Part shown: piece after piece, positions 13,295-39,760 of the stretch | How the letters are laid out: the number at the start of each line of letters is the position of its first letter | Position numbering within the stretch: position 1 is the first letter of the stretch | Assembly: GCA_025602905.1 (NCBI GenBank) | Contig: JAHLKI010000001.1 | Location: 434,001-498,000, forward strand | Direction of reading: 5' to 3' | DNA length: 64,000 nt | From: Phlyctochytrium arcticum | Taxonomy: Eukaryota > Chytridiomycota > Chytridiomycetes > Chytridiales > Chytridiaceae | The notes under the pieces: model-generated | Told to the model about the DNA's origin: nothing | The model's database searches: none | What the model saw: only the letters and a program-made list of their open reading frames with translations | Position numbers and translations under genes: made by a program

Positions 13295-14201
13295 CGGACA
13301 AAAGTCCGACATTTCTTGGCTCAGATCCATTTTGCCCTCCCTTGCGCGCAAAAAGACCTAAATACAACGTCCCACCACGTCCACACAAACTCAATAAAAG
13401 ACATGTCCTCCAACGGCACCCAGTCTGAGGATGTCTATAATGCAATACATACATTAGTAGAGGAGCATAATGAAGCCAGCAGAAAGCTATCACAAAAGAT
13501 GGCAGACTTGATGGCATTAACCCCGGTTACTCCAACTCTCATGCAAACAGCGTTGCGGGCAGTACAGCCTGTGGGTCATAGGGCTCCCAATTTGTCTGAG
13601 GGTAATTCTACACCCTTGAAGCAAATGATGAATCATGGAAAATCTCATGCGCATTGTTTATTCTTAGCAGAAATCAGTATTAGATCGAACGCGACCGACG
13701 AGACTCATAACGACTCGACCTATACACAGAGTAGTGGTCAAGTTCAGCTTGAAGGTAAAGTATTCCTCTCTATTGTTCAATTGATAAAAAATCCAATGCT
13801 CATTATCATCTTTAGAAACCATGGTTGGGTTGAACGTGAGCAATAAGGATGACACCGCAACCGATGCTGAAGATGTCACTCAATTGCAAGATCAATCAGA
13901 GTCAAACGCCCCTGACGATGCTACAGTCTCCGATGGTATGATTACCCAAAGGTGGAAAATGTTCGATAGCTGAATAATTTCTTTGCGCAGCATGGACCCC
14001 GCCTGTTCCCCCTTCCGGTCCCTTTGCTACATCTGAAGAAGCTGACCGTGCGTTAAAGCAGTTTGCAACGGAAAATGGATTCGCCATTTCCAACCTGAGA
14101 GAGGAGCGTGTTGCCGGGCGAGGAACTCCGGTCCACAAGATCTGGCGCCCCTGTGCATGTGGCGGACAATGTCACAGTGCATACTGACATTCCCCTTAAC
14201 A

Positions 14202-14520
14202 CTGGCCGCCATTGATATTCTATCTTCACCAATCGCCCGTCAATGTCACCTTCTGCTAATGATATTGCATCTTCACCATTTGCCCTTCCTCACTGGCCGC
14301 CAATGATATTCTATCTTCACCATTCGCCCGTCAATGTCACCTTCTGCTAATGATATTGCATCTTCACCATTTGCCCTTCCTCACTGGCCGCCAATGATAT
14401 TCTATCTTCACCATTCGCCCGTTAATGTCACCTTCTGCCAATGATATTGCATCTTCACCATTTGCCCGTCAATCCTCACCGGCCGCCAATGATAATTTAT
14501 CTTCACCATGCGCGGACGAT
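14202..14520 (+). repeat. Tandem repeat, about 91-bp unit, roughly 3.5 copies
   Basis: The unit begins CACTGGCCGCCAATGATATT and contains two related halves of about 45 bp (AATGATATTCTATCTTCACC and AATGATATTGCATCTTCACC). The last copy and a half are translated as the Ser/Ala/Asn-rich N-terminus of the RRM protein (ANDIASSPF, ANDNLSSPC), so the coding start was built from the repeat. Confidence 0.85.
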
Positions 14521-15303
14521 AGGTTGCCAAGATACCCGTCCAAATCATGTTGTGGTTCCGCCGAGCGTTCGGTACTCATTGGCGGGGACGGTCCACTGTC
14601 GGCGCTTGCGGTGCATGAGTTTCTGAAGAAAATGGACCACAATACGGAATATGTCCATTGTATTATTCAACCGGGCAAGAACTATGGCTTTGCACACTTT
14701 ACGTCCTTTCGGGGTTCGTCGGCCTTTTATTGGCTACATCACGAGATTGGGTTAGATAGCCCTCTCGGTCGACTCAGAGTAAATGCAGCCAAGTACACCA
14801 GGACGGGAAGCTATGTTCACTATGTAAGATACCATGCATTGGTCTTTTGCATTCACCAACATGTCGCTCACTCCCTATCTTTCTCGTTTTGTTAGCTTCG
14901 ACCGATGGAAGACAAGGACAAGGCACGCGCTAATGCTGCTGACGACAGGACACCCATATACGTGGAAGAGAAAGAGAAGGCACCACAGGCACCACAGGCA
15001 CCTCAGACACCTCGGACACCACAGGCACCTCAAACACCACAGGCACCTCATACACCACAAGCACAGGCACCTTCTATGGAGGACAATGACCGCAAGCGGA
15101 AAAGGCTGGACGACTCAAGGAATGTCATGTTCCTCATTCAGCAGCGACGGCGTCAGTTCGATGAATTATTGTCGGAATCGCTGGAGAGTGTTAAGGCCGA
15201 CATTGCTACCGCTCCTGCAGAGCTCACCAGAGTTTCTGCTGCTTTAACCAAGCTTATCCAAACTGTCGTTAAAGTTGCGGAACTGGAGGATCTTGGCATG
15301 TGA
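14425..15303 (+). CDS. RRM-like protein with APQTP repeats, carried by the nested element
   Basis: Two exons, 14425-14823 and 14896-15303 (donor GTAAGA, acceptor GTTAG), give about 268 aa. Residues 1-35 come from the tandem repeat. Residues about 50-125 look like an RNA-recognition motif: a first strand SVLIGGD, helix LSALAVHEFLKKM, and an RNP1-like KNYGFAHFTSF. After the intron comes a charged stretch (MEDKDKARANAADD), then about ten APQ/TPQ repeats (14978-15070), then a basic segment DRKRKRLDD and a C-terminal helix likely to form a coiled coil (QQRRRQFDELLSESL). The frame is intact although the element sits in a dead transposase, so it may be recent or selected. RNA binding is inferred from the fold only. 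Confidence 0.6.
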
Positions 15304-15511
15304 TGTTGGAGGAGGTCGGGCGTTGTCACCCGGTTTGGGCCGTAACTTTTGTTTTCTTATATCATATTTGTCTTCGTGTTTTTAAACATGCAAATGTACA
15401 AACCGCTTCTATTTGTCAAGTGTCCGTCGGCAACTCTGCTTTACTCTCCTTTGACTTTTGCATGCCTCCCGAAACGCCTTGTCATCGAAAAGTGATCAAC
15501 TCAGTGCATGG

Positions 15512-15660
15512 CCTCGTCTAATACTGGACAAACGTGAGGACAATGGAAGTTCAGAGTATCTTGTGAAATGGGGTAACCTGGAAGGAGACGACATGGGAGT
15601 CCAGACAGGATATTATACTATTGGGAGGCGAAGATGACATTCTTGCCTATGAGAGAACAC
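15512..15660 (+). pseudogene. Chromodomain remnant with one frameshift
   Basis: The plus strand reads ILDKREDNGSSEYLVKW, a chromodomain core, then shifts frame at about 15592 and continues WESRQDIILLGGEDDIL, matching the TWE-xxx-DI end of the fold. Such chromodomains occur at the C-terminus of Ty3-type retroelement integrases and in host chromatin proteins. No integrase core is present beside it. It lies between the RRM gene and the helicase remnant inside the nested element. Confidence 0.55.
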
Positions 15661-16027
15661 ATCATTAGATCTCGTTCTTCTTACCGGGTAGCGGCGGTGA
15701 TCTTACCGTACCGGTATTGTGAACCTGCTTACGGCTATATTTCAGAGTTCTTCTGTAGCGGTTGGCGAGCCTCGCTTCGCGACGGAATCTGGCGTGACGA
15801 CGCATGTAATATGGCATTTGATTTTTCATCCTTTAATTATGATTATGATTCGAAAATGCAAAAGAGCAAAATCCTTTCAAATTGGGGGATAGGCCATCCA
15901 TTCGCACATTGTGTCGGGCGTTGTATAGTTGCTGGGGGACGTCGAGTGCATGAACCCCAAACATGCAGAGTACTAACTTTTGCAGCTATACAGCCCAATA
16001 TGAACGAAGACCCACTTCGTATTAAGT

Positions 16028-16390
16028 TCAAAGAACCTCAGAGAACGCGACGTTGCGAACACCATCGGCTGCACCTTCTGAACCGGTAACAACTTTCATT
16101 TGGTCAGGGTGTCGCCCTCGCGAAAGAGCCACATACAGCTGGCCATGAGTAAAGACCTGAGTGCCCAAGTATACTCCCACATCAACGTTCAAACTGTCAA
16201 CAAGCTGAGCGATGTCGTTCTCTTGGTCATGGTAGTCTTGAGGGAATTCAATAATATCCTCAATATCAGTTGGTTTGTATTCGTCAGTACACTTATTGCA
16301 GTACTCTCTCCAACATGAAGTGCATTGCCCTACATGGTCAACCATGATATGTTCACCACATCCACTGCAATTCCAAATGTCTATGCCCAT
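16028..16390 (-). pseudogene. Helitron/Pif1-type helicase C-terminal fragment
   Basis: The reverse strand encodes about 120 aa. The C-terminal half contains VFTHGQLYVALSRGRH preceded by a GVYLGTQ strand, the conserved end of Pif1-like helicases in Helitron transposons. The N-terminal half has paired cysteines (CSGCGEH, CTSCWREYCNKC), a zinc-ribbon-like pattern. Earlier helicase motifs are absent, so this is a fragment, perhaps captured or left by an older insertion. Confidence 0.6.
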
Positions 16391-17050
16391 TGTTGTTTAA
16401 ATAATGTACCAAAAAATTAATCTTATATGATTGTAAATATAAGAATGTTGCAACTGGACACTAATAACATCTCACAGTGTATCACAAAGAAAAAAGAGTT
16501 CTTTGAATTATAACTATATGATTGCTCGAGTCGACGAGTTGACGGAATACAGAATATTCTGTTTTTGTTTTTCTTCCAGTCAAAGGAGAGGAAGAAATTC
16601 GAATCAATAAAGAATCATGCTCGAATCATCCCCGAATAGAGATTGTGCGGGGGGTGCGGGGGGGCGGGGGGTATGAATCATCCACGAATCATAGAAGAAT
16701 CACAAAGGAATCAATAAAGAATCGGGTAAGATTCTAGCAATTCTAGCTTTTTAAGAATCGAGTGGGGTGCGTATTCAACAAATAAAACTAAGAGACGCTT
16801 CACTCTAAACAACTTCTATCTTTCTAGCTCAAATTTGAACAAAAAAATTACAAAATGAAAAAAAAAATGAATTTTAAAAAAATTTAACTTTATTTTTCAA
16901 ATTGAAAGTACTTTATGAAAAATTTGGGCTAGGAAACTAGACACTCCACGATTCAGAAGGGGAACTCCAAGCGAGTCATCCCTGCGCGATCTAGAAACTA
17001 GCTAGAATCATGTATGATGTATGTACGATACACATAGATGGGGGATGTTG
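16391..17050. other. Non-coding AT-rich part of nested element
   Basis: No coding signal is seen. AT-rich runs occur around 16850-16920, and GAATCA-type words recur around 16600-16760 (AAGAATC, GAATCAT). A C/G-biased stretch of mostly G lies at 16650-16675. Confidence 0.5.
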
Positions 17051-17062
17051 TGCAAACTCCGA

Positions 17063-17180
17063 TTCTATCGATAGAATCATGTGAGTGGTTGGTTGCGCAG
17101 AATCCGGCCAGATTTCTGGTTAAACGTTCTATTGATAGAATCATGTGAGTGGTTGGTTGCGCAAAATCCGGCCAGATTGA
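17063..17180 (+). repeat. Two direct copies of a 48-bp subterminal repeat
   Basis: GATAGAATCATGTGAGTGG followed by TTGGTTGCGC and AATCCGGCCAGATT occurs at about 17070 and again about 65 bp later, with one or two mismatches. Shorter relatives (ATCGATAG, CCGGCCA) continue toward the right end. Subterminal repeats like these often serve as transposase binding sites; here that is inference. Confidence 0.65.
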
Positions 17181-17263
17181 CAGGTCAAAATGCTATCGAT
17201 AGATCTCTGACCGGCCAAAAAACCTATCAATAGAACCATACCCCGGCCAGTTTATCCGGCCAG

Positions 17264-17319
17264 TGTCACAGTGCATACTGACATTCCCCTTAAGGGGAAT
17301 GTCAGTATGCACTGTGACA
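17264..17319. repeat. 56-bp perfect palindrome at right end of nested element
   Basis: The 30-bp end repeat occurs twice head to head, sharing the central TTAA (17290-17293). The left end has only one copy, followed by CACTGGCC, whose complement GGCCAGTG directly precedes this palindrome. The right terminus has therefore been duplicated as an inverted copy. Confidence 0.85.
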
Positions 17320-17648
17320 GACAATACAAGCCGAAGGATGAAGGTATCCCGTTGCTCAAGAGAGGAAGCAAGAAAGTAGGCTGTAAATATATGGCTATCC
17401 TGAAGGGTACTGTTGCGAAGGGTGTGGTGGGAGAATGGACCATCAAGCTGTCGGACGGGGCCGGAAAAGGCACCCATTCTGGTCATCCACAGCTGACAAA
17501 GGAGGGCTTGATGCCTTATTTCCAGGCACGTCGATTTACTCAGAGTGCCGGCGTCGCCCGTGAGATCAACAACATGATCGAGGCTGGCTCTAAACCTCGG
17601 GAGATCCTAGTTACTATCAAACGTCATACCTCCCAGCCCTTGGTGATG

Positions 17649-17820
17649 TAGCGTTTTCGGTTAAGAGTTGGTATGGACGGTAATGCACCTTCCCAGGGTG
17701 CGAGAGTCGGGGTAGTGTTATTAGCTTTAGCGCAGAGGAAGAGAAAAAGCGTGAAGAGTAAAATGTACAGTGCAAGGGAATGATATACAGAAGAAAACAA
17801 GAAATATACACGTGACGATG
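17649..17820 (+). mobile_element. Small insert with tRNA-Gly(CCC)-like head, possible SINE
   Basis: The transposase frame stops here (after SQPLVM) and similarity resumes near 17880 (KNLEDLLKGRSPLTALLDDL). The insert starts TAGCGTTTTCGG and contains a seven-base loop TTCCCAG between complementary GCACC and GGTGC, an anticodon arm of tRNA-Gly(CCC) type. The D and T arms are degenerate. GATG occurs at both borders (17645-17648, 17817-17820) and could be a target duplication. It is not a functional tRNA gene. Confidence 0.4.
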
Positions 17821-18158
17821 CGCCTTAGCGCAGTCGTGCGGTCAATGCTCATCAAACCACGAGCCCGCCGCAGGTGACCAAAAATCGAAAAATTTGGAAG
17901 ATCTGTTGAAAGGCCGTTCCCCTCTGACAGCTTTACTGGACGACCTGGCCCAATCTGTAGACCAAGGAGTCGTCACAGATGTCATTCAAAATGAACAGAA
18001 GGTCCTCACGCACTTGTTCTTCCAGACCGATGTAAGTTCCGATGACCGAAACCTTTGTGATCCTTTGTTAAAACGCGCACGATATATAGCGGTATATGGC
18101 GGAGCTACTCACCAAGTTCGGCGATGTTTTAATCATGGATTGTACTTATCGCACAAAC

Positions 18159-18438
18159 TGTAGGAGAGTGATGAAGCGTGGCTTCAAGCGCGGGATCAAT
18201 TAGACTTAGATCGTACAGTTGTGTTACGCGAGTTTTTTGGGCGGGATCAGATAGAACCTGTCGGAGATTCAGAACTTAGAACGTTAGGTCGATTGTATAG
18301 AACCCCTATACATTAACGCTTGAATAAACTACTCTAAACAGTCAAAAAAAATGTAGTAGCCGAGACTACGAACTTGAATAAACTACTCTAAACTGTCAGT
18401 TGTTAGTTGCATTCAAGTTCGTAGTCTCGGCTACTACA
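18159..18438 (+). mobile_element. 280-bp solo-LTR-like insertion with 5-bp target duplication
   Basis: The ends are TGTAGG and TACTACA (TG...CA), flanked by CAAAC at 18154-18158 and 18439-18443. Removing it rejoins the transposase catalytic segment YRTN to HHKMPLL in frame. Inside are two direct copies of CTTGAATAAACTACTCTAAA (about 18321 and 18373). A 27-bp inverted repeat lies around 18354-18438 (GTAGTAGCCGAGACTACG and its complement). Size, ends and duplication fit a solitary LTR of a retrotransposon. No matching second LTR is in the window. Confidence 0.7.
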
Positions 18439-20111
18439 CAAACCATCACAAGATGCCCCTACTCCATGTTGTTGGAATCACCGACACTGCCCATTCTTTC
18501 TCAGGGGCATTTATGTTAATGGCAAACGAAACCACAGAAGACTATGAGCTTGCCCTGGACCGCCTCTCAGCGTCCCTACCAAAAGCGCCAGGCATAGTGG
18601 TCATTGATTCTGACGCGGCATTTATTGCAGCGGTGAAGGGCAAATGGCCCAACACTATAATCATTCTTTGCAGATGGCATCTATGGCAAAACATCAAAAA
18701 AAAACTGTCAAAAAAACTTTGTTGATGATGATGAGAAGTATGATGCGCTAGCGTGGTCAGCTTTCAAAATGAATGTTCCTTCTTCAAACCTAGGTCGTCT
18801 TTCGCATTGCTAAGACTTTTTTTATACAGGATATGGATGGACTTGGAACGGGCACCCACTGAGGAAAAGTTTTTAGAACTTTGGGAGCAAATGGAAAAAG
18901 ATGTCGACAAGGATACCTATAACTACCTGGAGAAGAACAAAATCCCTCTAAGACGACACTGGGCGAGTGCATACATTGACAAATACCAGCATTTGAGCGC
19001 CACCGTGACGTCTAGGGTGGAAGGCAAGCGGCATCGATCAAGTCCAATGGTTCTGCCAACTCCACCATCTTCACCCTCTATCGTACTATAAGCCGAAATT
19101 GCGCCCAACAAATGGCCAATTATCGGGCGGCTGTGGGATCGGACGCAAGCACCATCCACCGTTTCCTGACCTGTGATGATATTCAACCTGAAGCTCAAAA
19201 AAGGTTTCGAACTCCCGAAACAATCCGACCTTTCTACGCGAAAGTGAACCAACGCCTTCCACTTCACGTACTAACCATGGTTGACAACGAACGAATTAAG
19301 GCGGACAGGATCACCAAAGCCAATGACACTGCCACAATATTGAGTGAAGGCTCGCTGGTCTTGAAGCCATGCACTTCGTGGCATAGGACAGTAATGGGCG
19401 TGCCGTGTGCCCACGAAATCCTTGCCATGCGGAAGGACGATCGTGCATTGAAAATGTCCGACTTTATCCAAAGGTGGCACTTGCAACCGGTCACAAAATC
19501 CACGGAGGTACTAGAACCTCCAGTTGGTCGATTCAGCAAGGTCACCCACGAGCGTGGGAACAAAAGGCTGCGCACATCAGCAGAGCGCGCGGAAAGCGAA
19601 CTGCAAGCAAGCCAACAGCATTGTGGGGTTTGCCAGGCGCGCGGACATAACAGGACTCAATGCCCATCTGTTGAAGTGGCATCGCAAGACGCCCAGTCAA
19701 TGTTCGATGATATTTCCGAATCCAACACGCCCACCGCAGGAAGCAACTCAGAGCCACCGCGCAAAATTCGGGCCGCACCGCGATGTTCCCGCTGTGGGTC
19801 GTCTGGCCACAATTACAAGAGCTGCGCAGTGAAGAACTAATTTCCTTTTTAACTACTTTTTGCCATCCAATCATATATACGTGTCGGTATTGTCAGCTTG
19901 ACTTGAATGAGCTACGTTCCTCTTGGCCATTTTTAGCAGCTTTCATATAGCGATTGGGTCAAGCGTGTGTAATCTATCAGATTGTGCTAGGTTCGGTTGG
20001 GTGTACCTGTGGAGACAGGGAGCTTGCAGTTTTCTTTATACAATGATGGTGAACAGGGCAACGTGGAAGGGCGCTGCCAGCCCGCCTTGCGGCCAGCCTT
20101 GCGGCCTTGGA

Positions 20112-38904: not shown

Positions 38905-39760
38905 GAGTGTCATCTTGGAGGGTGAGCATGACCTGTAGTGGGTAATTGAGATGATGCGACGAGTAAGTGCAACTTGGGGTGATAGTGAGGATGTTGGATA
39001 TGATAGGCCTGGGTCCTTGCGCAGATTATGCCAATGTGAGGGAAAAGGGTGATGAAGATTATGCGACGAGTAAGATAATTCTGTGCGATGCTGATGCTAG
39101 TGTCGGAGATCATAGGCCTCGGCCCTTGCGCAGATGATGCCGATGTGAGGCAAAAGGGAGTGTGCGGTGAGCGGGAAGGTCCCGTAGACGATGCCGTTTG
39201 TATGGAGTCAGAATCAAACGTTGGAGGGGAAAAATGACCGGTAGTGGGTGATGGAGTTGATGCGATGAGTAAGAGCAATTTGGGTCATGCTAGTGATGTT
39301 GGATATGATAGGCCTGAGTCCTTGTGCAGATGATGCCAATGTGAGGGAACGCGGAGTGTGCGGTAAGCGGGAAGGTCCCTTAGGTGATGCCGTTTGTATG
39401 GACCCAGATTTCAACGTTGGAGGGTAAGAATGACCTGTATCGAGTAATGGAGATGAGGCGACGAGCAAGGGCATTATGGGTACTGCTAATGTCGGAGATC
39501 ATAAACCTAGGTTCTTGCGCAGATGGTGTCGATGAGGGAGTATGCGGTGAGCAGGAAGGTCCCGTAGGCGATGCCGTTTGAATGGCGCCAAAGTCCAACC
39601 AAGCTTCGAGGGTAAAAATGACCTGCATCGAGTGATGGGGATGAGGCGACGAGAAAGAGAATTATGGGTGATGCTGTTGATGGCGGAGGTGACAAGCCTA
39701 GGTCCTTGCGTAGCCGTCGCTGATGTTCGGGGAAAGGTAATAGGTAATGAGCGGGTAAGT
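38905..39760 (+). repeat. Tandem array, about 185-200-bp unit, 4-5 imperfect copies
   Basis: Each unit carries TTGGAGGG(T/G)-AAAAATGACCTG, a GATGCGACGAGTAAG-type segment, GATCATAGGCCT, CCTTGCGCAGATGATGCC and GCGGGAAGGTCCCGTAG. Unit starts are near 38912, 39214, 39414 and 39600; the first interval also holds a partial extra copy (about 39040). Minus-strand frames through the array give Ser/Pro-rich repeats only because the unit is repeated. Confidence 0.8.

Follow-up and report, generated by a model that had tools for sequence, protein, structure and literature searches.

A 3,150-bp element in the chytrid Phlyctochytrium arcticum raises the question of what kind of element has ends suited to transposition, a single intact gene and no transposase. 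The element lies at positions 14170–17319 of the window, by which we mean the whole 64,000-nt stretch analysed (contig JAHLKI010000001.1, positions 434,001–498,000). Coordinates given without a contig are positions in this window; C numbers denote P. arcticum contigs and L numbers extracted loci. We consider it highly probable that the element is non-autonomous and derives, through internal deletion and rearrangement, from a polinton-like virus (PLV) family of this genome. The termini of this family are palindromes whose tip (TGNNACNGTGCAT) is conserved and whose core is specific to the lineage. The assignment as a non-autonomous derivative follows from the type of end shared with capsid-coding elements and from the pieces of the family that are retained, and it supports the proposal of a non-autonomous cargo element made in a preliminary description of the locus.

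Palindromic ends in the window and across the genome

The ends of the element, its target-site duplication (TSD) and the gene that it interrupts are as follows.

14165–14169: left copy of the TSD, sequence GACAA
14170–14199, + strand: left end, the outer half of the palindrome plus two bases, cut two bases past the centre
17264–17319: right end, a complete and perfect 56-bp palindrome (arms matching at 28/28 positions without mismatch)
17320–17324: right copy of the TSD, sequence GACAA
18453–18722, + strand: outside the element, MULE domain of the interrupted host transposase gene (PF10551, 2.4e-15)

The inverted ends (14170–14199 and 17290–17319) are complementary at all 30 of 30 positions (100%), and the element is flanked on both sides by GACAA; for comparison, chance 5-bp agreement at random position pairs is 0.0011. 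Joining the flanks through a single GACAA gives an unbroken reading frame (...KIWRPCACGG before the junction and QYKPKDEGIP... after it) that matches an intact MULE protein on C13 (31% over 151 aa), and the interrupted MULE gene spans at least 14020 to 19837. The precise ends and the 5-bp duplication of the preliminary description are therefore borne out, as is the lack of a transposase, no intact one being present in the open reading frame (ORF) list of the window. The terminal inverted repeats (TIRs) of that description are confirmed too, but they are not plain ones: because the right end is a whole palindrome, the 30-bp TIR pairs a half palindrome on the left with a complete one on the right. 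Folded as DNA, the right palindrome has an energy of −31.6 kcal/mol (z −12.5).

The search of the genome for further copies of the ends, which had been proposed as a check, finds the tip repeatedly, with a core that differs between families. A search of the 31.5-Mb genome gives 48 hits for the 13-bp tip TGTMACMGTGCAT and one for the reversed control (all tip sites except C39:30728 were read from the sequence). Forty of the 48 tips form 20 facing pairs spanning 41–132 bp, and eight are unpaired, including the left end of the window element. Nineteen of the 20 pairs are palindromes with 0–5 mismatches in a gapless count; the C26 pair (132 bp) is a longer, irregular structure. Of the unpaired tips, two (C3:484908 and C36:185306) have a diverged second half behind them, and a third (C17:289145) may be a chance occurrence. 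The palindrome cores vary by family yet remain self-complementary, and three types were distinguished.

Core type AGATAGCCTC: C25, C4:1443608, C5 and C8
Core type CATAAACC: C3:1207491, C27 (twice), C29, C45, C84 and C86
Core type CCCCTTAAGGGG: window, C13, C4:361613 and C40

At several sites of the CATAAACC type the DNA inside the tip is 93–99% similar and the outer flanks differ, which indicates that palindrome-ended elements have dispersed. At two pairs of sites, C4:1443608/C5 and C45/C84, the flanks are the same on either side, which suggests that these regions were duplicated. A perfect 46-bp palindrome on C58 (50292–50337; L068) adjoins a tandem repeat, as does the left end of the window element.

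Capsid-coding elements and small derivatives with the same ends

The same termini are found on much larger elements that code for a candidate capsid protein. On C40, a 24.9-kb insertion (C40:7173–32114) has a perfect 56-bp palindrome at each end and the TSD CCCTG, and the target frame is continuous without the insert. Its inverted repeats extend for 7.1 kb; up to offset 7,120, where they diverge, they differ by a single mismatch. The insertion codes for a 416-aa capsid candidate and an A32-type ATPase (PF04665, 5.9e-9). A protein of 1,117 aa weakly matches a replication family, and one of 214 aa is a second structural candidate. On C13, a palindrome lies where a gene breaks off, and about 22 kb further on a chloride-channel-like frame (CBS 1.3e-8, Voltage_CLC 0.009) resumes after a truncated capsid gene. 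This insertion contains an rve integrase with a chromodomain (PF00665 8e-15, PF00385 1e-14), a homologue of the C40 ATPase, a D5 helicase and apparently unrelated inserts, for example a MULE gene; an rve integrase is also present on C26 (6.5e-15). The capsid genes on C19 and C17 are followed by palindromes of 68 bp (tip TGACACGGTGCAT) and 63 bp (tip TGCTACGGTGCAT), respectively. A palindrome is thus present at four of the five capsid loci for which the end region was examined (C40, C13, C17 and C19), and the tips at two capsid loci begin with TGA and TGC instead of TGT. At the level of the family, the features found comprise the rve integrase (C13, C26), an A32/FtsK-type packaging ATPase (C40) and TIRs with a short TSD (C40). 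The 416-aa protein, considered as a candidate double jelly-roll major capsid protein, matches the genome at 60 places, and 30 of these matches cover at least 400 of its residues.

Several observations weigh against this assignment. No integrase match was found on C40, and the unrelated inserts on C13 mean that the integrase and the palindrome there are linked and not proven to be one unit. The capsid candidate has no significant relative in the PDB, PHROGs or a set of 5.8 billion proteins, and its match to Pfam Capsid_N (0.029) is under the cut-off, so that the label 'capsid' rests on gene company and on this match. At the C1:1341274 capsid locus no palindrome is present within the 2.5 kb examined. 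The core of the window element recurs only at C13, with one change per arm, and we found no full-length sister that combines this core with the internal order of the element. Finally, the element is single-copy in a DNA search of the genome, and movement of this unit itself is therefore putative.

Small elements with these ends also occur. C25:139557–141303 is a 1,747-bp element with a 62-bp palindrome at both ends and the TSD GAGAG; it carries the p112 gene of the family (67.5% identity), which lies near the capsid-gene termini on C17, C1 and C19. The TSD AGCTG flanks a lone 61-bp palindrome at C8:569203–569263 (L060), and GAAGA repeats lie on either side of a lone 31-bp half palindrome on C18 (L075); both were picked out through their TSDs. 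Solo long terminal repeats and miniature inverted-repeat transposable elements are likewise ends or mini-elements that remain in a genome with a TSD; the solo unit here differs in being one terminal palindrome, as at the C8 site. When 15 lone palindromes were tested for a direct TSD, 5 bp was found at C8 only, 4 bp (GGGG) at C45 and C84, and 0–1 bp at the other 12, as is expected if most are one end of a longer element. All three elements with two known ends (window, C40 and C25) have a TSD of exactly 5 bp.

The insertions in the window and on C17 lie in MULE transposase genes. On C40 the target gene weakly matches a SWIM/RNaseH-like profile (PF21056, E 0.002, under the cut-off), the C18 half palindrome lies in a weakly MULE-like frame (35% over 40 aa) and the target of the C13 insertion is not a MULE gene. 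With so few sites, an insertion bias toward MULE genes is a lead only; such a bias would fit a chromodomain that recognizes silenced repeats.

Other features of the capsid-coding family were noted. The middle of the C40 element (L049–L052) holds a second, degraded capsid gene (42% identical). Near-identical genes, comprising a 637-aa frame and part of an FtsH-like gene, flank the C13 insertion at 340–343 kb and 371–376 kb (L026/L036) and point to a segmental duplication. A CheY-like response-regulator gene, unexpected in a polinton-like element, is present at L032:3767–4165 (Response_reg 2.5e-8) and L031:4283–4678, with matches in L030 and L018. Very long repetitive frames at L031:24–3911 and L032:104–3391 (1,295 and 1,095 aa) have the look of fibre proteins, and a Pfam scan of that in L032 gave no match. 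As regards a protein-primed PolB, the frame at L032:7325–8761, which we take to resemble the N-terminal part of PolB, is without a match in Pfam and PHROGs. Homologues of the integrase comprise four distant proteins (26–29% identity) among 2,924 candidates, and no free-virus relatives were found in IMG/VR for the capsid, the integrase or the palindrome pattern.

Interior and possible origin of the window element

The window element contains no integrase, ATPase or capsid gene of its own, only a broken chromodomain and a 57-codon piece of another ORF, which is why we call it a derivative and not an autonomous member. Its interior features are as follows.

14200–14513: 91-bp tandem repeat, 3.4 copies, with none reported elsewhere in the genome (DNA search skipping simple repeats)
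14425–14823, + strand: exon 1 of the passenger gene, with the RRM-like motif KNYGFAHF (an RRM is unproven)
14896–15303, + strand: exon 2 of the passenger gene, with AP/TP repeats and including the stop codon
15521–15665, + strand: frame-broken chromodomain remnant in two pieces, matching the C-terminus of the C13 rve integrase (E 8e-5)
15756–16182, − strand: 3' fragment of a Helitron including the helicase end (69–73% in DNA and 78–86% in amino acids over 50 residues to Helitron loci)
16220–16390, − strand: 57 codons from the start of a RING-like ORF that belongs to the capsid-coding family (75% in amino acids to L029:2032–2202)
16430–16646: intergenic DNA of the family, from between the CheY-like and p112 genes (82–91% to C41, C16, C26, C18, C46 and C23)
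16670–17274: subterminal repeats in common with C86:396–1089 (84 and 94%), reaching into the first 11 bases of the tip

The right part (16220–17319) is filled by DNA of the capsid-coding family or its like, and the RING-like piece now reads into the Helitron fragment. A relative of this fragment at L033 matches Pfam Helitron_like_N (8.6e-67) and PIF1. Tandem repeat, passenger gene and chromodomain remnant all lie in the left part (14200 to ~15748), which matched only itself in the same DNA search of the genome. The chromodomain remnant was compared with five queries from the P. arcticum genome, namely two family integrases and three Gypsy elements; the best of these was the C13 rve integrase, and remnant and integrase both terminate at this point. 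In Pfam, the first piece of the remnant matches PF00385 at E 7.8e-5, just under the family cut-off, and the second piece has no match.

The same ancestry could have led to this structure in a different way, in which a full-length element entered the MULE gene and there, in place, lost its interior and took up the Helitron fragment as well as the DNA that bears the gene. The 3.15-kb unit would then never have moved and would not be a cargo element. We regard this as a serious alternative whose chance falls somewhat short of even. It agrees with the presence of just one copy in the genome, with the Helitron fragment and broken chromodomain, which indicate decay or later insertions, and with C13, which offers an example of a decayed large insertion. 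Against this, the cut lies no more than two bases from the palindrome centre and leaves the outer half and the TSD intact, the lone C18 half with its TSD indicates that halves can occur as insertions, and the lack of mismatches in the palindrome (28/28) and the left half (30/30) argues against long decay.

For a derivative of the polinton-like family that moved as a unit or was completed after integration, the following steps can be proposed. An rve chromo-integrase supplied in trans by other copies would recognize the tip and make a 5-bp staggered cut. Each palindrome has the tip at its outer as well as its inner edge, so that a half palindrome retains a complete outer tip, which fits the intact left junction. 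The left arm may have been lost through a break or a template switch at the palindrome centre, and a fragment bearing the RRM-like gene may have been joined at the broken centre. The position of the left break, at most two bases from the centre, together with the C18 half, would suggest events at palindrome centres, which might be cruciform cleavage, hairpin opening or template switching. Capture and joining could have occurred either before integration, in which case the 3.15-kb unit moved, or after it.

A broader model can be put forward tentatively, and we think it rather less probable than not: that of a fungal polinton-like lineage with copied-out hairpin telomeres as its genome ends. It would have a full palindrome at each end, the integrase tip on both halves and a chromodomain-bearing rve integrase. 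Breaks at the centres and recombination between palindromes would yield gene-capturing mini-elements, solo palindromes and 31-bp halves, all with a 5-bp TSD, and the window element would be a product of gene capture.

On the assignment favoured here, what was an orphan TIR element is derived from a large family of virus-like elements in a chytrid, the polinton-like family gains a searchable terminal signature, and the locus provides an example of a gene from outside the family becoming joined to viral termini. If the palindromes are hairpin ends, capsid-coding polinton-like elements would be linked to hairpin-ended replication, and the solo and half palindromes would keep a simple record of past integrations in the genome.

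Known systems and the passenger gene

PLVs have been described in early fungi, in the Spizellomyces punctatus group and as integrations in Allomyces, and such integrations have TIRs, TSDs of 5–7 bp and rve or tyrosine recombinases (PMC7805220). The P. arcticum family resembles these in consisting of capsid-coding elements integrated in a chytrid. It differs in that its ends are short palindromes with a common tip and with mini, solo and half forms, and the terms 'palindrom' and 'hairpin' are absent from that paper. The PLV expansions of cryptophytes are similar in their many endogenous copies, rve integrase and TSDs of ~4–6 bp and differ in their TIRs, which run to hundreds to thousands of base pairs; the text of the source contains neither 'palindrom' nor 'non-autonomous' (PMC12220804). 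In the open-access literature, including passages of PMC11071308, PMC7805220, PMC12220804 and PMC2836005, no description of palindromic termini, solo or half palindromes or mini-PLVs was found. PLVs in early fungi and large PLV expansions are thus already published, and we did not find palindromic ends with solo and half forms in print.

The preliminary description had found that the TGT...ACA ends fit no family that could be named. The ends stand as described; the lack of a family does not, since TGTCA...ACA fits the TGTNR ends which, with rve-integrase chemistry, are described for Ginger, Gypsy and their relatives (PMC2836005), and since the ends belong to the polinton-like family of this genome. 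A Ginger-like family of cut-and-paste transposons unrelated to the capsid elements would account for the ends and the chemistry, and TDD-4/5 of that group have 5-bp TSDs. According to the same source, Ginger/TDD elements share the TGTNR ends, a Gypsy-type integrase and a TSD of 4–5 bp with the present family and differ from it in having no capsid genes, longer TIRs and, in Ginger1, a CCGG/CCGT-specific TSD. This explanation is improbable: the capsid-gene loci bear the same termini, family genes and DNA lie within the window and C25 elements, the TSDs GACAA, CCCTG and GAGAG do not agree with the 4-bp CCGG/CCGT of Ginger1, and the two capsid-locus tips in TGA and TGC depart from TGT.

A Transib/RAG affiliation was also considered, as CACAGTG occurs in the tip, and was rejected because the TSD places TGT inside the element.

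The only intact gene of the element is spliced and codes for 268 aa (annotated as DFS34DRAFT_6667). A single intact gene with repeats (AP/TP), as the preliminary description had it, is confirmed, and the identification as an RRM protein is not: no RRM profile matched at E ≤ 1, and the locus is absent among the PF00076 matches listed over its own genome (to E ~0.7). Single-sequence AlphaFold prediction of the piece 14551–14832, which includes three intron codons, gave a pLDDT of 43.6, too poor to judge the fold. Among 5.8 billion proteins (1,397 candidates) the one match of the protein is itself. Its relatives in the genome are limited to three other stretches at two loci (C28 and C2), which are diverged (41–57%) and have no similarity to it at the DNA level, so that the gene was not recently copied from them. 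C28 carries no capsid-gene match, and none lies within 260 kb of the locus on C2; by the criterion of the preliminary description the gene is a one-off. At L055 (C2, ~722.0–722.5 kb) two tandem copies of the paralogous domain, of which the second is frame-broken, adjoin minisatellite-like DNA.

That this protein aids the movement or replication of the element, as had also been suggested, would be in line with its being encoded by the sole intact gene. We rejected it as a mobility gene, and consider such a role very improbable, because its few diverged relatives lie away from capsid genes and no such gene is present in the ORF list of C25. The gene looks like a passenger and not the engine of the element. 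Least probable of all is that the palindromes are assembly artefacts: long-read libraries can give false inverted repeats, but here the cores vary by locus and are self-complementary nonetheless, one tip is shared, and 5-bp TSDs lie outside the palindromes.

Elsewhere in the window, no inverted repeats of at least 60 bp were found at the GC-skew peaks at 32–34 and 38–40 kb. Degenerate repeats with a spacing of ~184–196 bp lie at 38910–39733, beneath the second of these peaks.

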